Below are positions 37,076 through 49,347 of a stretch of DNA of 64,000 bases, one piece after another (position 1 is the stretch's first letter; the number at the start of each line of letters is the position of its first letter). Position numbers and translations under genes: made by a program. The stretch is taken from the NCBI RefSeq assembly GCF_900129725.1, contig NZ_FQWQ01000002.1, positions 186,001 through 250,000 of the forward strand, in the 5' to 3' direction. The stretch is from Chryseolinea serpens. Lineage in GTDB: Bacteria > Bacteroidota > Bacteroidia > Cytophagales > Cyclobacteriaceae. Under the pieces are notes generated by a model. It was not told where the DNA came from. It saw only the letters and a program-made list of their open reading frames with translations, and did not search any database.

Positions 37076-37128
37076 TAAACACCGTCGTCAGGTATCCCTG
37101 AAATTTGAATAAACAAAATAAAAAGCAT

Positions 37129-37869
37129 ATGACACAAGTAGAAGAACAATTCGACATGCATACAGCCTCCGTCGCCGACATCGCGCTGACCTTTCCAAAT
37201 TCGCTTGAAATTTTGAACCGCTATAACCTCGACTACTGTTGTGGCGGAAAAAAATCTTTTGTCCAGGTCTGCGCACGAGCCGGGCTGAACGCGGAATCGA
37301 TCTGGCAGGAAATACAATTATGTGTGGCCAACCAGGGCCCGGACAGTCGGATGCGTTTCGACACCTGGGAGGCGCCGCTCCTGATCGATTTCATTGTGCA
37401 GCACCACCACCATTACGTCCGCGATTCCATTCCCCAGATCCAGGCCCTGCTGGATAAAGTTTGTCATGCGCACGGCGATGATAGCCCGTTTTTACTGACG
37501 GTCAGTGATGAATTCAATACGCTGGCCGCGGAACTGCTCCATCATATGCCCAAGGAAGAAGAGGTCTTGTTCCCCGCCATCCGCATGCTCTTTGCCAACA
37601 GCACTTCAGCATTCGAAACCAACATCAAAAACAGACAGCTTATGGCTCCCATTACGATCATGGAAGACGAGCATGAAATTGCGGGCCGTCTCATCAAATC
37701 CATTCGCTCGCTGACCAATCACTATACGCCACCGGCCTATGCCTGCCCTTCGTTTAAAATGACCTACATCATGCTGCAGCAATTCGACAACGATCTGATG
37801 CAACACATTCACCTGGAGAACAACATCCTGTTTCCCAAGGTCACCGGGGCGAACGCGTGCGCACGCTAA
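37129..37869 (+). CDS. ric: Iron-sulfur cluster repair di-iron protein (RIC, ScdA/YtfE family)
   Basis: The 246-residue protein has an N-terminal ScdA_N (DUF542) domain with Cys37-Cys38 in LDYCCGG and a C-terminal hemerythrin-like domain with the di-iron ligand set: HHHHYVRDSIPQ, LLHHMPKEEEVLFPAI, DEHEIAGRL and HIHLENNILFPKV. RIC proteins restore Fe-S clusters damaged by nitric oxide or oxidants (known). ATG 37129 is preferred; an in-frame TTG at 37105 would only add MNKQNKKH. Upstream is an Fnr-type palindrome, and downstream lie the B12-dependent ribonucleotide reductase (30 bp) and a Crp/Fnr regulator, which fits a response to low oxygen and nitrogen oxides. Confidence 0.95.
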   Translation: MTQVEEQFDMHTASVADIALTFPNSLEILNRYNLDYCCGGKKSFVQVCARAGLNAESIWQEIQLCVANQGPDSRMRFDTWEAPLLIDFIVQHHHHYVRDSIPQIQALLDKVCHAHGDDSPFLLTVSDEFNTLAAELLHHMPKEEEVLFPAIRMLFANSTSAFETNIKNRQLMAPITIMEDEHEIAGRLIKSIRSLTNHYTPPAYACPSFKMTYIMLQQFDNDLMQHIHLENNILFPKVTGANACAR

Positions 37870-37899: not shown

Positions 37900-39750
37900 T
37901 TGGAACTGAATCAACAAATCCTGAGCAACCTGATCGTTTATATGAAATATGCCCGCTATCTGCCCGAGCTTCACCGGCGCGAATCGTGGGAAGAGATCTG
38001 CCAGCGCTACGAGAACATGATGGTGGAAAAGTATCCGCACTTGCGTGCCGAGATCGTTCACTGGATGGCCTATGTGTACGAACGAAAGGTGTTGCCCTCC
38101 ATGCGCGCCATGCAATTTGCCGGGGCGGCGATTGCGCGAAATCACAGTCGCATTTATAACTGCGCCTACCTCCCGGTGGATGATATTCGGGCATTCCCGG
38201 AAACTTTGTTTTTGCTCCTGGGTGGGACGGGTGTTGGATATTCTGTGCAATATCATCATGTTGAAAAGCTGCCCGCGATCCAAAAAGCTGATAAGACCAA
38301 AAAATTTCTGATTGGCGACAGTCTCGAAGGGTGGGCGGATGCGGTGAAAGTATTGCTCAAAGGATATTTTGGACTCAGTTCGTTCTTGCCGGAGTTTGAC
38401 TATTCAGACATTCGCCCCAAGGGCGCGAGATTGGTAACCGCCGGCGGAAAGGCGCCCGGGGCCGAACCGTTGAAACTTTGCATCGCCCATGTTCAGGCGA
38501 TCCTGGATCGAAAAGCGGACGGCGAAAAACTCAGTCCCTTGGAATGTCACGACATCCTGTGTCACCTGGCCAACGCGGTGTTGGCAGGGGGCATCAGGCG
38601 GTCGGCGATGATCGCCCTCTTTTCCGCCGACGATGAGGAGATGCTCACCTGCAAATATGGTGCGTGGTGGGAATTGAATGAGCAGCGGGGCCGCGCCAAT
38701 AATTCCGCGGTCCTGTCGCGTGAAACGACCACCCGAACCCAATTCTTCGACCTCTGGAAAAAGATCGAGTTGTCGGGATCCGGCGAGCCCGGTTTTTATT
38801 TCACCAACGACCTGGACTGGGGCACCAATCCCTGTTGCGAGATCGCGTTGCGTCCGTTTCAATTTTGTAATCTCTGCGAGGTCAATGTCTCCGATGTGAG
38901 CAGCCAGGAGGACTTGAATGATCGCGCCCGGGCGGCCGCATTCCTGGGGACGTTGCAAGCCGGGTTCACCGACTTTCACTATCTGCGCGAGCAATGGAAG
39001 ACCACGACGATGCAAGATGCCCTCATCGGTGTCGGCATGACCGGCATCGCGAGCCAGCGGATCGACCAATTTGATTTGTCGGAGATGGCCGACGTTTCCA
39101 AGCATATGAACATGATTACCTCGGCAAAGATCAACATCGAGTTTGCCGCCCGTTGCACCACCATCAAACCTTCCGGGACCACGTCGCTCGTACTCGGGAC
39201 ATCGTCCGGGATCCACGCCTGGCATAGCGACTATTACCTTCGCAGGGTGCGCATCGGAAAAAATGAGGCGCTGTATTCCTTTCTCCACCACCACCACCCT
39301 GAATTATTGGAAGACGACTTGCTCAACAGTCAACAGGCCATCCTTTGCATCCCGCAGAGGGCACCCGAAGGAAGCATCCTCCGGAATGAAGACGTCATGG
39401 ACATTCTGGGACGGATCAAAAAATTCCACACCGAATGGATCCGCAGCGGTTTTCGAAGGGGCAATAACGGCAACAACGTGTCGGCAACCGTTTCCATTTC
39501 TGCGGGAGACTGGCAGCGCGTGGGCGCTTGGATGTGGGAGAACAAAGCTTCGTACAATGGGCTGAGCGTACTTCCCTTTGACAACGGGAACTATAAGCAA
39601 GCGCCTTTCGAAGATATCGGCGAGGAACAATTCATGCTCCGGGAGAAAAGCCTTCGGGTCATCGACCTTTCCCAGGTGACGGAGTTCGATGATGAAACGG
39701 ATCACAAAGCCGAGGCGGCGTGTGCCGGAGGGGCTTGTGCCCTAGTATAA
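37900..39750 (+). CDS. nrdJ: Adenosylcobalamin-dependent (class II) ribonucleotide reductase
   Basis: The 616-residue enzyme makes deoxyribonucleotides without oxygen. The visible cysteine set matches the monomeric class II enzyme of Lactobacillus leichmannii: Cys88 in YNCAYLP, thiyl-radical Cys312 in NPCCEI, Cys323 eleven residues on in FCNLCEV, and a C-terminal shuttle pair CAGGAC with the same five-residue spacing. GGTGVGYSVQ and KPSGTTS are further family motifs. NPCCEI has a second Cys where Gly is usual. The start is TTG 37900: an in-frame stop at 37885 excludes anything longer, and the next ATG (37942) would cut the conserved first helix. It lies 30 bp after the RIC gene, probably in one operon, and needs vitamin B12. 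Confidence 0.92.
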   Translation: MELNQQILSNLIVYMKYARYLPELHRRESWEEICQRYENMMVEKYPHLRAEIVHWMAYVYERKVLPSMRAMQFAGAAIARNHSRIYNCAYLPVDDIRAFPETLFLLLGGTGVGYSVQYHHVEKLPAIQKADKTKKFLIGDSLEGWADAVKVLLKGYFGLSSFLPEFDYSDIRPKGARLVTAGGKAPGAEPLKLCIAHVQAILDRKADGEKLSPLECHDILCHLANAVLAGGIRRSAMIALFSADDEEMLTCKYGAWWELNEQRGRANNSAVLSRETTTRTQFFDLWKKIELSGSGEPGFYFTNDLDWGTNPCCEIALRPFQFCNLCEVNVSDVSSQEDLNDRARAAAFLGTLQAGFTDFHYLREQWKTTTMQDALIGVGMTGIASQRIDQFDLSEMADVSKHMNMITSAKINIEFAARCTTIKPSGTTSLVLGTSSGIHAWHSDYYLRRVRIGKNEALYSFLHHHHPELLEDDLLNSQQAILCIPQRAPEGSILRNEDVMDILGRIKKFHTEWIRSGFRRGNNGNNVSATVSISAGDWQRVGAWMWENKASYNGLSVLPFDNGNYKQAPFEDIGEEQFMLREKSLRVIDLSQVTEFDDETDHKAEAACAGGACALV

Positions 39751-39812
39751 TTTCAGGTTTACAGGGTTAGGCTGGCGGGTGACTGCCGGCCTATTTTTTA
39801 TTTACTTTAAAC

Positions 39813-39824
39813 TGATTTTCGTCA
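39813..39824. promoter_or_regulatory. Possible Fnr-type box at the start of the Crp/Fnr gene
   Basis: TGAT-TTTC-GTCA fits TGAY-N4-RTCA and touches the ATG at 39824. Binding there would repress rather than activate, which would make it an autoregulatory site. A single match to this relaxed pattern can easily be chance. Confidence 0.25.
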
Positions 39825-40471
39825 TGACCTATCCCATCGATTTGTCCCATCTTTTAGAAAAAAAGAAAAGAAAGGTGATCCCCGTTCAACTCTTCGAGAA
39901 GTACAAAGCGCGCCTGGTGAATGTCAAAAAAAACCAGGTCCTCTTTGAGGAAGGTGACCCCGCCCGGGATTTTTTCCAGGTCGAACAAGGTCAGGTAAAG
40001 ATGTACATCATCAACCCGGAGGGCCAGGAGTTCACGCAGGGCATCTTCCACGCCGGTGAAAGTTTTGGAGAGCCGGCGCTGTTGGGTGACTTCCCTTATC
40101 CCAGCAACGCCATGGCTATGGAGCCCGGAAAGGTCTGGAGATTGCCAAAGCCCGAATTTCTTCAACTCTTAAAAGAGAACTTCGACGTTCACCTCCGGCT
40201 GGACCAGGTGCTCTGCAAACGCCTTCAATATAAAACGATGATCCTGACCGAGGTTTCCTCCTACGACCCGGAACACCGTTTGATGACGTTGCTGAAGTAT
40301 TTCAAATCCAAGCTCGTCAAAAAGACGGCCACCGATAAAGTCATCATTCCCTTCACGCGGCAGCAACTTGCCGACATGACGGGGCTGCGGGTCGAAACGG
40401 TTATTCGTTCCATCAAGAAAATGGAACGCGATGCCAGGCTGCAGTTGGACGGCCATAAGATCAGATTCTAG
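39824..40471 (+). CDS. Crp/Fnr-family transcription regulator
   Basis: The 215-residue protein has an N-terminal cyclic-nucleotide-binding fold (about 30-120; FEEGDPARDFFQVEQGQVKMY, GESFGEPALL) and a C-terminal Crp-type winged helix (about 150-215) with FTRQQLADMTGLRVETVIRSIKKM. The recognition helix has Glu-Thr-Val-Ile-Arg, close to the Glu-x-x-Ser-Arg of Fnr-type readers of TGA half sites. There is no N-terminal cysteine cluster, so it is not an Fe-S Fnr; it may sense NO through haem or act otherwise. ATG 39824 is preferred over an upstream GTG at 39779. Its position in the middle of the nitrogen-oxide island, and Fnr-type boxes upstream of several neighbours, make it the likely regulator of them (inference). 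Confidence 0.93.
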   Translation: MTYPIDLSHLLEKKKRKVIPVQLFEKYKARLVNVKKNQVLFEEGDPARDFFQVEQGQVKMYIINPEGQEFTQGIFHAGESFGEPALLGDFPYPSNAMAMEPGKVWRLPKPEFLQLLKENFDVHLRLDQVLCKRLQYKTMILTEVSSYDPEHRLMTLLKYFKSKLVKKTATDKVIIPFTRQQLADMTGLRVETVIRSIKKMERDARLQLDGHKIRF

Positions 40472-40581: not shown

Positions 40582-42375
40582 TCACTCCTTGTATTGCCCG
40601 GTGATCGCAACGGAAATATCCTTGATCTCCTTCTCTATCTCGTCCAGGCGATCATTAAATTCCTCTCCTTTTTTGATGTCGCCGGCAAGGGCGTGATAAT
40701 ATTCTATACCCAGCAACAACTGCCTGGAGAAATCAAGAATATCCTTCGCCGACCTGGGCTCATCTTTTTTCAATGCGCTCAATTGCTCCTTCATGTAGGC
40801 GACGTTCAATGTCAATTCTTTGATAAACATGTGGGGCCTCTCCTGGCCATCCAGAATGTTTGTTCTGCCATAGATGTGGTCGGTCATTTCCTGCAGGGTT
40901 ACGATTTTATCGAAGTAGGCAATGTTTGGGCCTGGACATGTGGTTACCGCCGTGAGCCCTTTAACGGGTGGCAATTGATATTCCCGTATCGCCGAGTTAC
41001 TGAGGCCAATGCAAAGACATTCCTTGCTGACCACCTCGCGATACTGCTTTTCGTATTCCTCCACCGAAAGCTCCAGTGATTTTAACTGTTCGATTTTCAG
41101 TTTTTGATACTTATGGGACGCCGTACAGATGGGCTCTTTGGTGAACTCGGTATTGGACACCAGGAATTTTTCGGTGCAGGGGCTTCCCGGTTTCCCGTTG
41201 GCGATCCGGGACATTTTTTCTTTTTCTGAGCTCGTCCCTTTCAGGTAGTTAAAGCGCACACCCAGGGGGGAATTCTTGCTCAGGATCACGTCGTCTGCTT
41301 TGGCTTTGGCAAGCTGTTGCAGCGTGTCGGCATCGACCGTTGTGGCTTCCGGGCACAACAGAAAGGGCGTTCCCCAACCAACACTTTCAATGTCGTAGGT
41401 CTCCCGTAAAAACTCGGCCTCTTCATGCGTCCCCACTCCGCCCTGGACCGTGATCTTTAATGGATGGGGTTGTGTGAAGGTGAGCCCGGTCCTTTTTTCG
41501 GCCACGGGTTTATACAAATGGAACAAGGCCTGCGCAAGTTCCTCCCGTTTTGTTTTGAATTCTTCGAGTATGGGGCCCATCAAACTACCGTCCGTAGCGA
41601 ACGCATGGCCTCCGCAGTTGAGACCCGATTCGATGCGGAACTCGCTTACCCAGACGCCTTTCTTGGCCAGGAATTTTCCCTGGATCAGCGCAGAACGATA
41701 GTCGCTTACTTTGATGACAACTTTCTTGTTGAACACCCCAAACCCCTTGGCATCGAACTCCGGCAATCGTTCCAGGTAACTGAAAAGCCGGGGGTTCATA
41801 CCGGCCGAAAATACGATGGACGAATTTGTCAACACACTATTCGCATACCCCCGCAGCGCCGTGACGGCATCGGAAGAATCCTGCACCACCTTACCACCGC
41901 TCCCCGGATTATCGCGGTCAACTTTTGTCATGATGTTCACGTCGATGGCACCCGCGACGATCTGTGTTCTCAGATAATTTTGCATCGCCTTCCTGGCTGG
42001 TCCATCGGCCACGAGCATCTGTTCATAGGCCTTCCGCAATGCACTTTTGGAAGGAAGCATTTCCATATACTTGGAGATCTCCGACCCTTTCTCAAAAGCC
42101 GAAGCCTTGAGCTTCTCCATTTGCTCCTGCACAATTCTATGGACCAGGTTCAGATAGTCTGTGATCCGCCTGGCCCGGTAGTCTTCTTGCTTGGTGGTGA
42201 TGGGCTCATAGACCTCCCTGCGCTCCTTGTAGTAGTGGGCTCGCATAAGCTCCACCAATTTATCCTCGATGATGGATATGGTGGAAGCAATCCCATAGCG
42301 CGCCACTTTAATGGGAGAATCGATCGTGAAGGCCAGGCCCATGACGGGAATATGAAATTGATGTACGGGAGTCAT
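40582..42375 (-). CDS. Cysteine-rich orphan protein with nitronate-monooxygenase-like motif
   Basis: The 597-residue protein has no signal or membrane helix, so it is cytoplasmic. Residues about 320-345 (QGGVGTHEEAEFL, then SVGWGTPFLLCPEAT) resemble the phosphate-binding strand-loop of FMN-dependent TIM barrels such as nitronate monooxygenase. The N-terminus (IPVMGLAFTIDSPIKVARYG) also suits an FMN barrel. Seven cysteines, 254, 341, 400, 417, 453, 455 and 480, lie in conserved-looking motifs (NCGGH, SPCTEK, PICTASH, ECLCIG, TTCPGP), suggesting a metal or Fe-S site. The last 100 residues are helical. ATG 42375 is preferred over a TTG three codons earlier. An Fnr-type box lies 47 bp upstream. 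It lies downstream of the truncated haemoglobin gene on the same strand. Function unknown; an electron-transfer or nitrogen-oxide related reductase is inferred from context. Confidence 0.85.
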   Translation of the reverse strand: MTPVHQFHIPVMGLAFTIDSPIKVARYGIASTISIIEDKLVELMRAHYYKERREVYEPITTKQEDYRARRITDYLNLVHRIVQEQMEKLKASAFEKGSEISKYMEMLPSKSALRKAYEQMLVADGPARKAMQNYLRTQIVAGAIDVNIMTKVDRDNPGSGGKVVQDSSDAVTALRGYANSVLTNSSIVFSAGMNPRLFSYLERLPEFDAKGFGVFNKKVVIKVSDYRSALIQGKFLAKKGVWVSEFRIESGLNCGGHAFATDGSLMGPILEEFKTKREELAQALFHLYKPVAEKRTGLTFTQPHPLKITVQGGVGTHEEAEFLRETYDIESVGWGTPFLLCPEATTVDADTLQQLAKAKADDVILSKNSPLGVRFNYLKGTSSEKEKMSRIANGKPGSPCTEKFLVSNTEFTKEPICTASHKYQKLKIEQLKSLELSVEEYEKQYREVVSKECLCIGLSNSAIREYQLPPVKGLTAVTTCPGPNIAYFDKIVTLQEMTDHIYGRTNILDGQERPHMFIKELTLNVAYMKEQLSALKKDEPRSAKDILDFSRQLLLGIEYYHALAGDIKKGEEFNDRLDEIEKEIKDISVAITGQYKE

Positions 42376-42435: not shown

Positions 42436-42828
42436 TCAGGACGTTTCTTTCATCAGGTTCATTCTGTGTTGAAACACTCCGGCTATCTGCTGCGCGCGTT
42501 TTTTTATCTCTTCGGCCTTTTCTCCCCTGAAATTTCCGTCGACGATGTCCATAAAAATTTTTATCCAGGTGTTGAAGTGCTGCCTTTCGAGGGGAAGACC
42601 GACATGCTTCTGGAAGGGATTGCCCCTGTAACTCTGTTCCCCCAGCATCATGGAAGACCAAAAGTTATACATGGTCGGCAAATGCCTGGCCCACTCCACA
42701 TGCGCAAACTGTGGTGCGAGCAACGGATCTTCCCGCACCGTTTCGTAGAACCGGTCGACCAGCATTTCAATGTCCTTCCTGTCAACAATATCGTTGCGTT
42801 GTGTCATGATATGGTTTTGGTTTTTCAT
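42436..42828 (-). CDS. Group III truncated haemoglobin
   Basis: The 130-residue globin has the group III pattern: FYETVREDPLL in the B helix with Tyr28 at the B10 position, FWSSMMLGEQSYRGNP, and the proximal His candidate His75 in QKHVGLPLERQHFNTW. Proteins of this group are linked to NO or oxygen handling in microaerobic bacteria (known for Campylobacter Ctb). The start ATG 42828 overlaps the stop of the upstream FAS1 gene as ATGA, so the two are translationally coupled. It sits between the nitrous oxide reductase operon and the cysteine-rich orphan gene, which fits NO detoxification. Confidence 0.93.
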   Translation of the reverse strand: MKNQNHIMTQRNDIVDRKDIEMLVDRFYETVREDPLLAPQFAHVEWARHLPTMYNFWSSMMLGEQSYRGNPFQKHVGLPLERQHFNTWIKIFMDIVDGNFRGEKAEEIKKRAQQIAGVFQHRMNLMKETS

Positions 42829-43379
42829 TTTGCCGGAGGGAGCAACACCTCGTCGATGACATAAATAACGCCGTTCGTGGTGGGGACAACCCCCAGAACA
42901 TGCGCGCCGTTGACGGTCACATTGTCGCCCGTCTTGCCCAGTTTCACATCACTTCCGTTGACCTGGTTCAGCTTCATGCCATCGTGGATCATGTTCTCGC
43001 GGATCACGCCGACATAGACATGATACTCGAGGATGTCGCGGAGCTTTTCTTTGTTCTCGGGTTTGACGAGGTCTTCAACGGTCCCCGCCGGAAGTTTTGC
43101 GAATGCCGCATCGGTTGGTGCAAAGACGGTGAAGGGTCCTGCATTGGAGAGCGCATCAACATACGCTGCCGCTTTCAAGGCGGCCACCAGGGTTTTATGC
43201 TCTGCAGAAGCCGTCGCTACCTGGACAATGTTTCTTTGAGACTCATCGTCCCGCACGGACGATTGGCCGTTGTCGGTCGCGGGTTCTGCGATTGAAGCGG
43301 TCTTGGTTTCTGTTTGCTTACCCGGCGTACAGGCCGCGCACGCTACCAGGATGGACATGGCGAAATAAACAGTTTTCAT
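42825..43379 (-). CDS. FAS1 (fasciclin) domain lipoprotein
   Basis: The 184-residue protein has a lipoprotein signal (Val-Ala-Cys-Ala-Ala-Cys, about 17), a short Thr/Ser/Asp-rich linker and one fasciclin domain (about 45-182), with the family motifs GPFTVFAPTDAAFAKLP, LRDILEYHVYVG and NGVIYVIDEVLLPP. FAS1 domains mediate adhesion or ligand binding outside the cytoplasm. Its stop overlaps the start of the truncated haemoglobin by four bases, so the pair is one operon, and a perfect Fnr-type palindrome lies 52 bp upstream of its ATG. FAS1 proteins recur beside nitrogen-oxide genes in Bacteroidota in my recollection; a specific role is not known to me. Confidence 0.92.
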   Translation of the reverse strand: MKTVYFAMSILVACAACTPGKQTETKTASIAEPATDNGQSSVRDDESQRNIVQVATASAEHKTLVAALKAAAYVDALSNAGPFTVFAPTDAAFAKLPAGTVEDLVKPENKEKLRDILEYHVYVGVIRENMIHDGMKLNQVNGSDVKLGKTGDNVTVNGAHVLGVVPTTNGVIYVIDEVLLPPAK

Positions 43380-43472: not shown

Positions 43473-44240
43473 CTACAGATCTTTCCGGGAAAAGATCCGC
43501 ATGGCCAGCCAAAGGGGAAGCGCGATCCAAACCAGGAGAATGGACGACGAAAAGAGCAGCCCCATGTGGCTCCCAAAAAACGATTTGTAAAAAGCGCCCG
43601 TGTATCCCATCAAGGCCGAGATGTCCAATTGCAACAACATGATGATGCGCGCCAGGTCCACGGGATTGAACGCAATGAGTGTTAAGGTGATCTTTTCCAG
43701 CGGGTAATCGCAGAAGGTGTATACCACCCAAAGCAACAATCCATCATAGATCAGCGAAAAATAAAACCAAAAAAGCAGGGCAATACCGATCGCTTTGGCT
43801 TTGTCGCGGGTCAACACCGAGGAGAGAAAGGCGAGCGCCACAAAAACGAGGGTGAGCATCACGCCGGTAAACAGCAGTGTGAACACACTGGAATCGGCGC
43901 CGAAAAGTAACGATGGAATACCAATCCCGGCAACATAGGCCCCGCAAAGCGAGGTGGCCACCGAAATGTATTCACTGAAGAAAATGACGCGGCGGTTAAC
44001 CGGCTGGGCCAGCATCAATTCAATAAATTCATAGGAATTAAAAAAATGTATCGTCGTAAACACAACGCTGATCAGCGGAACCACCATCAGGACAACATTC
44101 AGTAAACTCAACACGACCTTACCGGGGTCGCTGTCGATCTGAAACATGGCAAACGTGCTGACCAGCAAGAACAACGTATACAACAAGATAAAGCGCGTGC
44201 GAAGCAGGTCGTAGAAAATGTATTTGATAACGCGTGTCAT
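43473..44240 (-). CDS. nosY: Nitrous oxide reductase maturation ABC permease
   Basis: The 255-residue protein has six hydrophobic helices and no other domain, the normal form of NosY-type ABC-2 permeases. SYEFIELMLAQPVNRRVIFFSEY is the coupling segment of this group. NosY with NosF forms the ABC transporter that works with NosD to build the CuZ copper-sulfur cluster of nitrous oxide reductase (known). The gene starts one base after the stop of nosF, so the two are coupled. It is the last gene of the nos operon. Called from position and topology more than from strong sequence motifs. Confidence 0.88.
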   Translation of the reverse strand: MTRVIKYIFYDLLRTRFILLYTLFLLVSTFAMFQIDSDPGKVVLSLLNVVLMVVPLISVVFTTIHFFNSYEFIELMLAQPVNRRVIFFSEYISVATSLCGAYVAGIGIPSLLFGADSSVFTLLFTGVMLTLVFVALAFLSSVLTRDKAKAIGIALLFWFYFSLIYDGLLLWVVYTFCDYPLEKITLTLIAFNPVDLARIIMLLQLDISALMGYTGAFYKSFFGSHMGLLFSSSILLVWIALPLWLAMRIFSRKDL

Positions 44241-44241
44241 A

Positions 44242-44970
44242 CTATTCGGTGATAGAGTCCAATAATTCCTTTTGCTGAATGAGCGTGGCGATGGCCTTGC
44301 CCAGGCGTTTCTCGTTGGTTTCCCGTTTCAGGGCTTCGATTGAATTATGGTATTGAATTCTCCCTTCGAAGATGTACACCACGTCGGTGGTGAGCTCGTC
44401 CAGGTCGTTGAGGACATGCGATGTGATGAGCATCAGCTTTCCTTTCAATTTCTCAGCGGTTATTTTCTCCTTGAAGATCTCTACCGACACCGGGTCCAGG
44501 CCGGCCGTAGGTTCGTCCAGGATCAGCACGGGTGGGTTAAAAAGAAAAGCAAGCGCCGCGCTGACTTTTTGCCGGGTTCCGCCGGAGAGCGAGTGCATTT
44601 TTTTGTCATAGATCTTATACAACTTAAATGCGTCGATCAATTCCTCATCGATCTTATCCTGTGAAGGGCGGATATTCCGCATCATGTCGACGAGCTGCCC
44701 GATGGTGATGTTTTCGGGATACCTTCCTATCTGCGGCATGTAGCCGATCTTTTCACGGTATTGCCAATCGGTCAGGATGCTCTTTTCTTCAAAGACAATG
44801 TCCCCCGACGTGGGCACCACCAGGCCCAGGAGACTTTTGATCATTGTCGTTTTTCCCGACCCGTTGGGGCCGATGAGGGCATAACTTTTTGAGGGGTACA
44901 CGTCCAGGGTTACGCTGTCGAGTACCTGCAGCTTTCCGAACTTTTTACTGACGTTGCGAAATGATATCAT
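44242..44970 (-). CDS. nosF: Nitrous oxide reductase maturation ABC ATPase
   Basis: The 242-residue protein is a complete ABC ATPase: Walker A GPNGSGKTT (about 34-42), Q-loop in YMPQIGRYPENITIG, signature LSGGTRQK, Walker B VLILDEPTAGLD and switch His in ITSHVLND. It lies between nosD and nosY and overlaps the end of nosD by 26 bases, so translation is probably coupled. It energises the NosDFY complex that helps mature the CuZ site of NosZ (known of the family). Confidence 0.94.
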   Translation of the reverse strand: MISFRNVSKKFGKLQVLDSVTLDVYPSKSYALIGPNGSGKTTMIKSLLGLVVPTSGDIVFEEKSILTDWQYREKIGYMPQIGRYPENITIGQLVDMMRNIRPSQDKIDEELIDAFKLYKIYDKKMHSLSGGTRQKVSAALAFLFNPPVLILDEPTAGLDPVSVEIFKEKITAEKLKGKLMLITSHVLNDLDELTTDVVYIFEGRIQYHNSIEALKRETNEKRLGKAIATLIQQKELLDSITE

Positions 44971-46198
44971 ACGGTCTCATTGAAGGTAATTCGTCTTTTA
45001 AATTTTCGGGTGTGATCGCCGGTATCGCTTTTTCCGTTCTGTCCATGAGGTAGACCAGGAAACTTCGCCAAAGCAACACGGCGGTGGGCATTTGTTCCAC
45101 CATCATGCCGTACAGGCTTACCGGCCGATACGGAATGTCGCCCGTGGAGTCTTTATTCAGATCATATCCCTCGTACTTATCCCAGTAGTTGCTGTTGATC
45201 TTATTCAGGACGAGTGTCCCGTTCGTCACCACGTCGAAAGTGTTGGCGAGAAAGTTGTTTCGTTCAAACACGTTATCGTCGCAACTGGCCTGGAGACGCA
45301 CCGCATAGCCGTTGTTCATAAAGGTGTTCTCCTGAAATTGGATCCGGCTGCTGCCTTCCATGAAAATGCCGACGGAGTTTTTCCGGAACGTATTGCTGCT
45401 GACAAAACTGTCGCGGATGTCTTTTAGCAGCAGGCCATAGGCCGCCGAGCCCCAATTGTATTCAAAAACGTTTTCAATCATTTTCACGCCTTTCGAATAC
45501 ATGACCGCAACGCCCGCGCCGTTGTTGACAAAAGTGTTGTTGCGATATTCGTCGTTGTGCGAAAACATAAAATGGAGTCCATAGCGCAGGTTTCCTTCGC
45601 TGTGATTCCGGGTGATCAGTGAATTGGTCACAAACTCGAAATAGATCCCATCGCGATGTCCTTTGATCGTGTTGCCGTTCACGGTGATGTGCGAACACTT
45701 CCACATGTGGATGCCGTTGCCGATCTGGTGTTCCGCTTCGGCATCGGCCTGCAATTGATTACCCTCGATCCACGATTGCGAGGTATTGGCGAAGTAGATA
45801 CCAAAAAAAGTATTTTCGAATCGGTTGTCGGTTATCCGAAGATTCGCGCATCCGATCGCCTTCACGGCGGCCAGGTCGTTCATGCTGGCAACGCCCGTGT
45901 TGATGAATTTTAGACCTTTGATCACCACACCGTTTGCTTTTATCGTGAGGATCTCGAATTTATTTTCACCATCCAGGACCGGGAACCCCTTTCCCAACAG
46001 GACCAGCGATTTGTCCAGCACCATATTTCCCTCCCGGTAAGTCCCTGCCTCGATCCAAAGCGTGTCGCCGGCCGCAGCCGTGGCAATGCCCGCACGAATG
46101 GATCGGATGGGTTGATGCGGGCCGATCGTAATCGACGCGGCCATCGTGTTCAGCGAAGCGAAGAGCAAAATACCGGAGATAATGAGGATGCTTTTCAT
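44945..46198 (-). CDS. nosD: Periplasmic copper-handling protein of nitrous oxide reductase maturation
   Basis: The 417-residue protein has a Sec signal (cleavage near Met-Ala-Ala-Ser, about 21) and a right-handed parallel beta-helix, shown by repeats such as ITDNRFENTFFGIYF, ITVNGNTIKGHRDGIYFEF, SLITRNHSEGNLRYGLHFMFSH and FVSSNTFRKNSVGIFME. GLHFMFSHND and DGIYFEFV are typical of NosD. Its Met and His residues are candidates for copper handling. It works with the NosF/NosY transporter. Its gene ends inside nosF by 26 bases and follows nosL at 30 bp. Confidence 0.93.
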   Translation of the reverse strand: MKSILIISGILLFASLNTMAASITIGPHQPIRSIRAGIATAAAGDTLWIEAGTYREGNMVLDKSLVLLGKGFPVLDGENKFEILTIKANGVVIKGLKFINTGVASMNDLAAVKAIGCANLRITDNRFENTFFGIYFANTSQSWIEGNQLQADAEAEHQIGNGIHMWKCSHITVNGNTIKGHRDGIYFEFVTNSLITRNHSEGNLRYGLHFMFSHNDEYRNNTFVNNGAGVAVMYSKGVKMIENVFEYNWGSAAYGLLLKDIRDSFVSSNTFRKNSVGIFMEGSSRIQFQENTFMNNGYAVRLQASCDDNVFERNNFLANTFDVVTNGTLVLNKINSNYWDKYEGYDLNKDSTGDIPYRPVSLYGMMVEQMPTAVLLWRSFLVYLMDRTEKAIPAITPENLKDELPSMRPYDIISQRQ

Positions 46199-46228: not shown

Positions 46229-46666
46229 TCATTTTCCTGAATGGTTTAGCAATTCATCCCACGACAGCATGGTGCCGTGCCATTCTGCATTGAATTTTTC
46301 GAATTCATCCTTGCGCTCAAAGGCCGCTACATGCCCCGCCATCGGGCTCCGGATGAGGTCCGACTGACTATAGAAAGATTTTGTTGCATCCAGCAACTTC
46401 GGGGTACCCACATAATTTGCCACCAGGTAGCTTGCCACATTTTCTTTTGGCTCATAGCCCGAGTGGATGAAGTTGACCATGCAGTTCAGATCGTCGAACT
46501 TATAGATCTTGCCCTTCCGGGTGAGGATCTCCGCTCCAAACTTCTCATCCACCAGCGTCATCTTACAGGTGTAGCAAGCATCCTTGCCCATGACCAACGG
46601 CTCCGGCTTTACACTGCATGAGAAAAGAGAAACCAGAGCGATAAAGGATACGGCTAAGTATTTCAT
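46229..46666 (-). CDS. nosL: NosL-family copper-binding lipoprotein
   Basis: The 145-residue lipoprotein has a lipobox (Ser-Leu-Phe-Ser-Cys17) and the NosL motif ACYTCKMTL with Cys-x-x-Cys-x-Met, followed by FGAEILTRKGKIYKFDDLNCMVNF and VPMAGH-like RSPMAGHVAAF. NosL binds Cu(I) and delivers copper to the nitrous oxide reductase in the periplasm (known). ATG 46666 is preferred because the signal starts there; ATG 46675, three codons upstream and 4 bp after the preceding stop, is possible. It follows the small membrane protein gene in the nos operon. Confidence 0.93.
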   Translation of the reverse strand: MKYLAVSFIALVSLFSCSVKPEPLVMGKDACYTCKMTLVDEKFGAEILTRKGKIYKFDDLNCMVNFIHSGYEPKENVASYLVANYVGTPKLLDATKSFYSQSDLIRSPMAGHVAAFERKDEFEKFNAEWHGTMLSWDELLNHSGK

Positions 46667-46679
46667 AGTAGGCATCTTG

Positions 46680-47282
46680 TTAGTGTAGCGTGGCCGACAC
46701 CGCGATCTTTTTTCTGGATAAGAAAAATTCAACTGCCAACGTCCCTACCGCGAGCACGCCCGCTACCATAAATATCCAGCCCCCGACATCGGGTCCGGAA
46801 AACGCAGTGAAGTTCAGCAATTGTTTTGTCCCGATGAGCGGCGGTTGATAGGACATTCCCGGAACGACAATGGGCGCCGTCGGGTCGAGGTTATGGCCGT
46901 AGTCATATCCCCACAAATAAAAATCAACCAGCGCACCTACTCCTGCACCCAGGATGAGGAAGACATAGATCCAGAGCAGTATCTTTTTGTTTGCCAGGGC
47001 CGTCAGCAAACCGACTCCGATGATCAATCCAACGATGTAGATCATGTAGCTGAACTCGGGGAACATGCTCACTTCGATATGTTTCATACCGATATAGTGG
47101 TTCAATGCGCTGATGATTTTAACATTACCGGTCAGCGTATTGATCCAGATCTTCATCTCCAGGCCCTCCGGATACTGGGGAGCCCACATCAGAATTTGCC
47201 AGAGCGGAACGAAATAGGCAGAAACCATCAACAATGCCGACAAGGCAATGGCCCACCGGGAGGATGGCTTTAGTGTTTTCAT
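46680..47282 (-). CDS. Four-helix membrane protein of the nos operon (NosB-like position)
   Basis: The 200-residue protein has four membrane helices (about 13-31, 78-97, 103-127 and 168-189) and a periplasmic loop with LNHYIGMKHIEV after the first helix, plus a loop with YDYGHNLDPTAPIVVPGMSYQPP. His and Met residues in these loops could handle copper. It lies between nosZ (76 bp) and nosL. Clade II nos clusters carry an integral membrane protein gene, nosB, next to nosZ (known from Wolinella); this may be its counterpart, but I cannot show homology. ATG 47282 is chosen because the longer frame reaches into nosZ and adds only a hydrophilic stretch. Confidence 0.85.
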   Translation of the reverse strand: MKTLKPSSRWAIALSALLMVSAYFVPLWQILMWAPQYPEGLEMKIWINTLTGNVKIISALNHYIGMKHIEVSMFPEFSYMIYIVGLIIGVGLLTALANKKILLWIYVFLILGAGVGALVDFYLWGYDYGHNLDPTAPIVVPGMSYQPPLIGTKQLLNFTAFSGPDVGGWIFMVAGVLAVGTLAVEFFLSRKKIAVSATLH

Positions 47283-47358
47283 AGGAGACTGTTTTGGATA
47301 TGAACCCCGACCCGTATGCCGGGCCGGGGTATTCAACCTGTAAACTAACGCGATACTA

Positions 47359-49347
47359 CTACTTACCGGCACCACTGGTCGCGTCATCCGGAACGCCGGT
47401 TGAGAATTTCAAAGGTGTCTTCACACCTGCTGCCGACACTCTCAGGTAGCCTGACATTTCCTGGTGCAAGGCCGAACAAAAGTCCGTGCAATAGAAAGGA
47501 ACAACACCTACTTCGGTCGGTTTGTATTTGAGGGTCTGTGTTTCACCCGGCATGATCAGAATTTCCGCATTGGTGGCACCCTTGATGGCAAATCCGTGCG
47601 GAACATCCCAATCCTGCTCGAGGTTCGTCACGTGAAAGTAGATCTCGTCGCCAACGTTGACCCCCTCGATGTTATCGGGAGTGAGGTGAGAGCGAATGGC
47701 GGTCATGTACACGTGCACCTGGTTCCCCTTTCGCTCCACGCGGGCCTGTGCTTCGCCTTTTGCAGCAAACGGGTTTTCGTTTTCTTCGATCTTATAAATT
47801 TTTGTTGAGTTCGCCGTGATCATGCTCGCCGGTATGGCCTCTGCATAGTGCGGCTCCCCGGTCGTAGGAAAATCGAGCAGTAACTTCATTTTCTCTCCGG
47901 AAATATCATAAAGTTGAGCCGACTGGGTGAGTTCCGGACCCGTGGGCAGGTAGCGATCCTTTGTGATCTTGTTGTAGGCGATCACATATTTACCATGCGG
48001 TTTCGACGTGGGGCCACCGGGCACACTCAAGTGTCCTATGGAATAATAGGTAGGGACCCGGTCCAGGATCTCCAGGGTCTTCACATTCCATTTCACGATC
48101 TCAGAAGATACGAAGAAGGATGTATAGGCATTTCCTTTCTCATCAAATTCGGTATGCAACGGACCAAGGCCCGGCTTTTTAACCTCACCGTGCAGCGCCG
48201 ATTCATATTTGATGACGGGAACACCGTTGAAATCACCTTCAAATTCTTTTTTCGCAATAGCGTTCTGGATCTTTGAAAAAGAGAACACCGGCATCATCGC
48301 CGCCAATTTTCCGCTGCCCACAATGTATTCACCCGTGGGATCAACGTCACATCCGTGTGGTGACTTCGGGCAGGGTATGAAATAGACCATGTCCGGCAAC
48401 TGCTCAATGTCCAGCACCGTAACCTCAGTTTCCATTGTAGATGTAGCCGAGTGTGTCTTTTCGCTATAAATGTTATGGGCATACTTAACTTTCTCAATTC
48501 TTCCCTTTCCTTGCGCCAGGTATTCTTCCGCTTTTTTCCAGTTCACGGCCATGATAAAGTCCTTGTCCTTCTGCGAAGCATTTACCTCGAGCAGCGTATA
48601 CGCTTGTTCGGTGTTGTAGCACGAAAAGAAAAACCATCCATGCGAAGGACCTTTCCCGGCACGGCTCAAGTCAAAATTGAATCCCGGTGTTCTTAATTGA
48701 AAGGCGATGCTCATGTGTCCCGTCTGTGGGTCCACCTTGACAAAACTGATAGAGCCTTTGAAATTTTCCTTGTACGAATTGATGGGAACATCCTTGTTGC
48801 CCATAGGTACGCTAAAGCGCGTGCCCGCCACGAGGTATTCGGTGTTCTCGGTAATGAACGGAGAAGAGTGATTTCCGCCACTGTTGGGGATCTCCAAAAT
48901 TTCTTCGGTGCGAAAAGACTTGAAACTTACCCGTGCGACGCGGGGTGTGTTGTTTCCGTTGGCAAAGATCCACCGTCCATCATGTTCTCCTTTTGTAGTC
49001 GACAGCGCAATGTGATGCAAATCGTCCCAGGGAACTTCACCCTTCGAGGTATTGAGCATGGGTTTGGTTTCCTCGCTGAATCCATAGCCACTTTCGGGCG
49101 AGAGCGAGAATACGGGGATGATCCTGAACAGTCTTCCGGAAGGGATTCCATAAACACCGATCTGGCCGTTGAACCCTCCCGACACAATGTTATAAAACTC
49201 GTCGTACTTCCCCGGCGCCACATATACTTGCGCCGCTGCGTCGCCGATGGTCACTTCGGCCGGGCCCTTTGGTTTACATTGATAAAAAGCGACTGCCATC
49301 AGGGTAGCCAGTAACGCGATGGTGATCCTATCTATTGTTGTTTTCAT
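47359..49347 (-). CDS. nosZ: Nitrous oxide reductase, clade II (Sec-exported)
   Basis: The 662-residue enzyme reduces N2O to N2 in the periplasm. It has a Sec or lipoprotein-like signal (Cys24) and no twin-arginine motif, the mark of clade II. A seven-bladed propeller carries the CuZ histidines (DDLHHIALS, GGNHSSPF, PHGCDVDPTGEY, LGPLHTEFD, KPHGKY). A C-terminal cupredoxin carries the CuA site: Cys620, Cys624, His628 and Met631 in CTDFCSALHQEM. All ligand motifs are present, so it looks functional. It follows a cytochrome c gene by 25 bp and heads the maturation genes. There is no nosR, as usual in clade II. Confidence 0.97.
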   Translation of the reverse strand: MKTTIDRITIALLATLMAVAFYQCKPKGPAEVTIGDAAAQVYVAPGKYDEFYNIVSGGFNGQIGVYGIPSGRLFRIIPVFSLSPESGYGFSEETKPMLNTSKGEVPWDDLHHIALSTTKGEHDGRWIFANGNNTPRVARVSFKSFRTEEILEIPNSGGNHSSPFITENTEYLVAGTRFSVPMGNKDVPINSYKENFKGSISFVKVDPQTGHMSIAFQLRTPGFNFDLSRAGKGPSHGWFFFSCYNTEQAYTLLEVNASQKDKDFIMAVNWKKAEEYLAQGKGRIEKVKYAHNIYSEKTHSATSTMETEVTVLDIEQLPDMVYFIPCPKSPHGCDVDPTGEYIVGSGKLAAMMPVFSFSKIQNAIAKKEFEGDFNGVPVIKYESALHGEVKKPGLGPLHTEFDEKGNAYTSFFVSSEIVKWNVKTLEILDRVPTYYSIGHLSVPGGPTSKPHGKYVIAYNKITKDRYLPTGPELTQSAQLYDISGEKMKLLLDFPTTGEPHYAEAIPASMITANSTKIYKIEENENPFAAKGEAQARVERKGNQVHVYMTAIRSHLTPDNIEGVNVGDEIYFHVTNLEQDWDVPHGFAIKGATNAEILIMPGETQTLKYKPTEVGVVPFYCTDFCSALHQEMSGYLRVSAAGVKTPLKFSTGVPDDATSGAGK

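Follow-up and report, generated by a model that had tools for sequence, protein, structure and literature searches.

A widespread family with six invariant cysteines at the end of a nitrous oxide reduction gene run, and its predicted likeness to FabX

What is encoded by the last gene of a nitrous oxide reduction run, when its product of about 600 residues, with six invariant cysteines, belongs to a widespread family that matches no Pfam or NCBIfam model significantly? The gene lies in a stretch of 64,000 nucleotides from Chryseolinea serpens (the window; the whole stretch analysed), as an uninterrupted Open Reading Frame (ORF) at 40582-42375 on the minus strand, stop codon included, which starts with ATG at 42375 and encodes 597 residues. 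The genome contains a single copy. An earlier note had claimed this length, cysteines at 254, 341, 400, 417, 453, 455 and 480, the motifs QGGVGTHEEAEFL and GWGTPFLL, and a place between a Crp/Fnr-type gene and a truncated haemoglobin gene. When the codons were checked, length and cysteines were exactly as claimed; both motifs are present and both neighbours are found.

Using the protein as query, nothing over cut-off was found in Pfam (PF03060 is not listed up to E 10), no significant match in NCBIfam, and no match in a PDB sequence search. DUF5446 (E 0.008, under its cut-off) and an arabinosidase model (weak; E 0.14) were rejected, and so were the apolipoprotein A-I helices weakly matched by the family profile (E 0.011). 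The features within the ORF are as follows.

40582-42375, minus strand: ORF of the 597-aa family (ORF list, genome and family searches)
41605-41616, minus strand: codons 254-257, C-G-G-H; H257 corresponds to the GGH histidine of FabX-type families, C254 is invariant here and Ala there
41437-41445, minus strand: codons 311-313, QGG, predicted FMN phosphate-binding loop; AGG in FabX-type families
41176-41178, minus strand: codon of C400, predicted [4Fe-4S] ligand (alignments)
41125-41127, minus strand: codon of C417, predicted [4Fe-4S] ligand (alignments)
41011-41019, minus strand: codons of C453-L-C455, predicted [4Fe-4S] ligands (alignments)
40936-40938, minus strand: codon of C480 within CPGPN, invariant (alignments)

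Matches at E <= 0.001 exist in 142 of 395 genomes of the phylum and in 22 of 59 near relatives (both figures include the own genome), and since nearly all of the 142 match over most of the length, the ORF is more than a chance reading frame. The matches are mostly near full length, with a few fragments (e.g. in G345 and G013), and identity is 44–61% in the phylum sample, own copy aside, and up to 75% within the genus. A scan of named genome contigs confirmed at least 577 stretches, of which 80 loci were kept, and the matches listed are mostly from Bacteroidota. Three loci labelled Omnitrophota (L112, L114, L126) and one labelled Ignavibacteriae (L104) match the family at 53–54%, and a Paludibacter metagenome-assembled genome (MAG) also has the gene (L100). 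No match was found in a plasmid collection. A literature search by title and abstract opening, with most subscription papers outside its range, found no description of the family.

In order to find the conserved residues, we aligned 47 of 51 family loci (alignment A1; the fragments L007, L022 and L023 and L046, a near copy of L039, were excluded), in which 93 columns are invariant. Adding 79 of the 80 named loci (L097 was lost at clustering) gave 126 sequences, which are partly non-independent; for example, L003 and L052 apparently come from the same genome. C254, C400, C417, C453, C455, C480, H257, Q311, G312 and G313 are present in all 126. Position 341 is valine in 43 of 47 members of A1, and valine, cysteine and alanine in 109, 16 and 1 of the 126, respectively. 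Thus, six of the seven cysteines listed in the earlier note are invariant, but C341 is not.

An AlphaFold2 model built from the 47-sequence alignment has a mean pLDDT of 90.8 and a pTM of 0.91, and by this predicted fold the protein would be an FMN-binding TIM barrel, as had been suspected from its motifs. In a Foldseek search against PDB there are 12 matches at E <= 0.001, of which ranks 1–3 are Helicobacter pylori FabX (best E 4.4e-9), a member of the nitronate-monooxygenase superfamily and the nearest solved fold. The TM score of the best FabX match is 0.62 by FabX length and 0.40 by query length, and the first match has an rmsd of 8.7 Å across 511 columns, the query being about 230 residues longer than FabX. 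Ranks 4–11 are PfaD and trans-acting or trans-AT enoyl reductases (PfaD/DfnA/MlnA type), and rank 12 is a fungal fatty acid synthase.

Ranks 4–11 lend some weight to an enoyl-thioester reductase working in the reverse direction (like PfaD, the trans-AT reductases and FabK), with ferredoxin as electron donor through the cluster, and a Fer4-type ferredoxin gene does lie two genes upstream in 4 of 79 listed loci. We consider this reading improbable. PfaD and trans-AT enoyl reductases are not known to carry a cluster. In a census of 261 neighbouring proteins (at most two ORFs of at least 100 aa per side, those up to 600 aa kept), no polyunsaturated fatty acid (PUFA) or polyketide synthase domain is among the 25 commonest families of either half, and the context known for such reductases is not among the commonest neighbour families.

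To place the family among its relatives by sequence, hhalign profiles were compared with four kinds of set from genomes of the phylum, including ordinary nitronate monooxygenase (NMO)/FabK proteins (A3), FabX orthologues (A5), a 419-aa FabX-like family (A2 and A4), and a pool of 5 FabX orthologues and 6 members of the 419-aa family (A6). Profiles A3, A4 and A6 were controlled by 30 column shuffles each, A4 and A6 also by reversal. L202, of A5, matches H. pylori FabX at E 4e-74, and the best PDB match of L160, of the 419-aa family, is FabX (E 3.5e-27). Against the pooled A6, the 597-aa family reaches probability 93.6, E 2.1e-7 and score 64, while the shuffles reach at most 25 and the reversed profile 25. 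Against the 419-aa family the result depends on the alignment, with probability 64 and E 6.4e-5 for A2, and probability 23 and E 8.8e-4 for A4 (score 37; shuffles at most 29, reversal 16). For the FabX orthologues of A5 the values are probability 5, E 0.0071 and score 30. It is therefore the pooled profile, together with the 419-aa family and the fold, that carries the kinship with FabX-type families; the FabX orthologues by themselves do not, because a score of 30 lies within the range of the shuffles of other profiles. The match to ordinary NMO/FabK is not significant (probability 0.2, E 0.35), and its score of 17 is below the shuffle mean of 18 (shuffle maximum 32), so an ordinary NMO/FabK identity was rejected.

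The same alignments locate a candidate cofactor site. With A2 and A4, hhalign pairs C400 with C319, C417 with C332, C453 with C358 and C455 with C360 exactly, and these four cysteines of the 419-aa family are invariant in 8 of 8 members; H257 is paired with the GGH histidine H204, QGG with AGG, and C254 with an alanine. The A6 alignment spans the barrel (GGH and AGG) and ends ahead of the cysteines, and in the non-significant A5 alignment C400 and C417 stand opposite two of the four cluster cysteines of the FabX orthologues. When 40 sequences were aligned jointly with MAFFT, GGH, the GG loop, C417, C453 and C455 fell into the same columns as their counterparts in the 419-aa family. C400 was shifted by two columns, and the cysteines of FabX did not come to lie with those of the 597-aa family. 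Taken together, the alignments predict FMN, a [4Fe-4S] cluster and a proton-abstracting histidine in the 597-aa protein.

This combination has a precedent, because FabX, an acyl-ACP dehydrogenase/isomerase of Helicobacter fatty acid metabolism, is a characterised relative in fold. In its published description, FabX is a flavoprotein of the nitronate-monooxygenase family with His182 beside FMN and a [4Fe-4S] cluster held by C300, C304, C308 and C320; FMN and [4Fe-4S] are both required, and oxygen is needed as acceptor in vitro (PMC8626469). FabX (H. pylori HP0773; PDB 9lt5 and 7e1q), the best solved match, shares with the 597-aa family the NMO-type FMN barrel (predicted here), the GGH histidine and, by prediction, cysteines in a C-terminal subdomain. 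However, FabX has 363 aa against 597 in the new family, which has extra helices; its spacing C-x3-C-x3-C-x11-C is not that of C400, C417, C453 and C455; and C254 and C480 are extra in the 597-aa family. The 419-aa family (L160–L166, L197, L198, L204–L206) aligns in the four cluster-type cysteines, the CLC motif, GGH and AGG/QGG, but it matches PF03060, is shorter, has Ala at the C254 position and extra C368 and C371, and is found in none of the 142 genomes with the 597-aa family. Nitronate monooxygenase/FabK proteins (PF03060, TIGR03151) have the barrel, GGH and phosphate-loop motifs in common with the family and are without the four cysteines; proteins of this kind are encoded separately in the own genome (L132, L133, L134). 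Because its cysteine spacing departs from FabX, the 597-aa family looks like a distinct subfamily, and by prediction it works like FabX. The earlier suggestion of a new flavin and metal-cluster enzyme is thus supported by prediction for the barrel and the cysteine site, but the combination is not without precedent.

The 419-aa family itself, of 418–426 aa and with CLC and CWTC cysteine motifs, occurs in 83 of 395 genomes (one as a fragment), mostly from two genera of one family, and looks like another FMN/cluster subfamily.

The cysteines might instead hold zinc, or make up a redox site with a structural or regulatory role, with the barrel doing other FMN chemistry. The prediction shows no metal, and C254 and C480 are invariant with no aligned cysteine in FabX, which agree with such a site. 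On the other side, four of the cysteines have aligned counterparts in the 419-aa family, for which the best PDB match, FabX, binds [4Fe-4S], and radical-SAM and U32 genes are among the commonest neighbour families. Radical-SAM and U32 enzymes are often oxygen-sensitive iron-sulfur enzymes. We regard a zinc or redox site as quite improbable.

If the predicted site is right, the protein would be a cytoplasmic FMN enzyme of the nitronate-monooxygenase/FabK/FabX superfamily. H257 beside the flavin would serve as catalytic base, and C400, C417, C453 and C455 in the C-terminal subdomain would hold a [4Fe-4S] cluster that accepts the flavin electrons, as in FabX, and replaces the NAD(P)H site. The substrate to be dehydrogenated would be an acyl thioester, most likely acyl-ACP, and the electrons would pass to some acceptor that is not oxygen. 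Most probably the enzyme would serve to supply unsaturated acyl chains, or to carry out an equivalent dehydrogenation, where desaturases that depend on oxygen fail, in growth on N2O, NO or trace oxygen. We tentatively favour this reading, an oxygen-independent FMN/[4Fe-4S] acyl dehydrogenase, perhaps for unsaturated fatty acid synthesis, with somewhat less than even confidence; cofactors, substrate and reaction are what we infer from the comparisons above.

The genome content bears on this reading in several ways. In the own genome, there are 7 FA_desaturase matches over cut-off, the FabA model has one match, which at 35 bits is far below its cut-off of 238, and a FabX query finds as best matches only genes of the FabK/NMO type. 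In a gonococcal study, the gene NGO1024 appears with values of 9.6 and 7.9 among the genes induced anaerobically, as does nitrite reductase, and the induction of NGO1024 was found puzzling (PMC3032703). Among the 395 genomes, none has both the 597-aa family (142) and a FabX-type gene (88, at a cut-off of E <= 1e-20, by which remoter members may be missed). At genus level the figures are 0 of 9 against 75 of 171, with a p of 0.005 that presupposes an independence of genera which does not hold; 81 of the 88 FabX-type genomes come from one family, and phylogeny confounds the non-co-occurrence. Anaerobes like Paludibacter have mostly saturated branched chains, which counts against unsaturated chains as the product. 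The oxygen need of FabX in vitro would likewise count against a dehydrogenase working at low oxygen.

The location of the gene points to its setting. It is the last gene of a same-strand run that leads from nosZ through the other nos genes, a fasciclin-domain gene and a truncated haemoglobin gene, with a convergent regulator gene beyond.

39779-40471, plus strand: Crp/Fnr-type regulator gene, convergent (cNMP_binding and HTH_Crp_2)
42436-42828, minus strand: truncated haemoglobin gene (Bac_globin), ends 60 bases upstream of the 597-aa ORF
42825-43379, minus strand: fasciclin-domain gene, overlaps the haemoglobin gene by 4 bases
43473-44240, minus strand: ABC-2 membrane protein gene, nosY by place (domain search)
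44242-44970, minus strand: ABC ATPase gene, nosF by place (domain search)
44945-46198, minus strand: nosD (NosD domain)
46229-46732, minus strand: nosL (NosL domain; searched as 46229-46663)
46680-47387, minus strand: ORF of membrane-protein type, between nosL and nosZ (Pfam search of 46683-47285 without match)
47359-49347, minus strand: nosZ, nitrous oxide reductase (family search)

The fasciclin gene (42825-43379) separates the nos genes from the haemoglobin gene, and a similar gene is present in 4 of the listed named loci. On the plus strand at 37900-39750, beside a ScdA/hemerythrin gene (37105-37869), there is a 616-aa ORF with a weak match to a ribonucleotide reductase barrel domain (E 1e-8), possibly a divergent reductase.

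An Fnr-type box of its own, which the earlier note had attached to this locus, was not found near the gene. The window has two perfect TTGA-N6-TCAA sites (5951 and 59125) against 1.79 expected, none of them within 16 kb of the 597-aa gene, and the nearest one-mismatch sites (40292, 40769, 42958) fall inside genes. There is no enrichment upstream of family members either: in 108 upstream regions drawn from 131 family loci, the perfect site occurs in 1 (1.0 expected from shuffles; 10 of 719 in controls), and the looser TTG-N8-CAA in 14 (9.5 ± 2.4 in shuffles; 81 of 719 control genes).

The survey of nosZ, family and FabX-type genes recorded one place per genome for each gene. NosZ is over cut-off in 127 of 395 genomes, and 68 have both nosZ and the family. 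Of these 68, 20 have the two genes no more than 20 kb apart, where about 0.7 would be expected (our own estimate for 4-Mb genomes); in 10 they are farther apart on one contig, and in 38 on separate contigs. The 20 close-linked genomes belong to 5 families, 14 of them to one (hand count). Co-occurrence has an odds ratio of 3.0 (p 1e-6) in all genomes, which is significant, and is weak (1.65; p 0.04) among the genomes that have no FabX-type gene, statistics that ignore relatedness. On the other hand, 74 of 142 family carriers are without nosZ over cut-off, and 59 of 127 nosZ genomes are without the family.

In 79 listed named loci with flanks up to 8 kb, neighbour clusters were named by family searches of one or few members and counted raw, with no background loci. 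6-pyruvoyl tetrahydropterin synthase (PTPS) is found at 15 loci, COX1-type clusters at 14 (one of these clusters is NorB), PAS kinases and Rrf2 at 13 each, nosD/nosY/nosZ clusters and YhbP at 11 each, a response-regulator/Crp cluster at 10, hemerythrin/DUF2249 clusters at 9 and truncated haemoglobin at 2. At 33 of the 79 there is at least one of nos, COX1-type, Rrf2, response-regulator/Crp, truncated haemoglobin or hemerythrin/DUF2249. The link of the 597-aa gene to nitrogen-oxide and low-oxygen genes is plain in its own genome and partly general; this much of the proposed nitrogen-oxide or anaerobic role stands, without the Fnr box.

This context suits the main rival, a nitrogen-oxide-linked role on another substrate: the same fold and cofactors would act on something other than a fatty acyl chain, as a protective or salvage enzyme of the NO/N2O response, e.g. 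on nitro-compounds formed by reactive nitrogen. The place after the nos, fasciclin and haemoglobin genes, the close nosZ pairs, the COX1-type, Rrf2 and hemerythrin/DUF2249 neighbours, and a superfamily that includes nitronate monooxygenases all speak for it. Nitronate monooxygenases, however, use oxygen and are not known to have a cluster, the ordinary NMO/FabK profile scores below the mean of its shuffles, and 74 carriers have no nosZ, and we judge this role unlikely. A factor that serves nitrous oxide reductase alone, in electron transfer or in maturation, would also explain the place after the nos genes and the linkage to nosZ; the many genomes that have either gene without the other, and the invariant catalytic-type histidine, make such a factor very improbable indeed.

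Context alone cannot name the substrate, because among the listed named loci no fixed operon partner was found, and the most frequent neighbour clusters, an ABC ATPase cluster and PTPS, reach 15 loci. Fatty-acid-synthesis genes are not prominent in the neighbour census: the 25 commonest families of each half include only short-chain dehydrogenases (adh_short, 6 of 261). A FabG-like cluster was rejected as a fatty-acid link, its 10 proteins from 9 loci being mixed short-chain dehydrogenases, one of them a flexirubin FlxB. Ten proteins, nine of them around the three Omnitrophota loci and one Ignavibacteriae locus, show no common theme.

Returning to the acyl dehydrogenase that we favour, its fullest form would be a new enzyme class, found in more than a third of the phylum genomes sampled and in MAGs labelled Omnitrophota and Ignavibacteriae. 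With flavin and [4Fe-4S] it would dehydrogenate saturated acyl-ACP and thereby form unsaturated chains with no need of oxygen, handing the electrons to an anaerobic acceptor; the invariant C254 would be an addition next to the catalytic histidine, and the enzyme would be produced along with the N2O-respiration genes. So complete a picture is doubtful. If the FabX-like reading is right, it would help to explain how membranes are adjusted on N2O or NO in bacteria whose known desaturases need oxygen, and the flavin/[4Fe-4S] design of FabX would be more varied and widespread than the known cases.

Two smaller arrangements recur around the family gene. In L061, L075, L076 and L088, genes for a U32 peptidase-family protein, a Fer4 ferredoxin and YhbP form a tight run directly before it, which we take to resemble the genes of oxygen-independent quinone hydroxylation, four loci being too rare to use. 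The PTPS gene lies near the family gene in L058, L068, L079, L087 and 11 other loci, in some of them beside COX1-type and Rrf2 genes.
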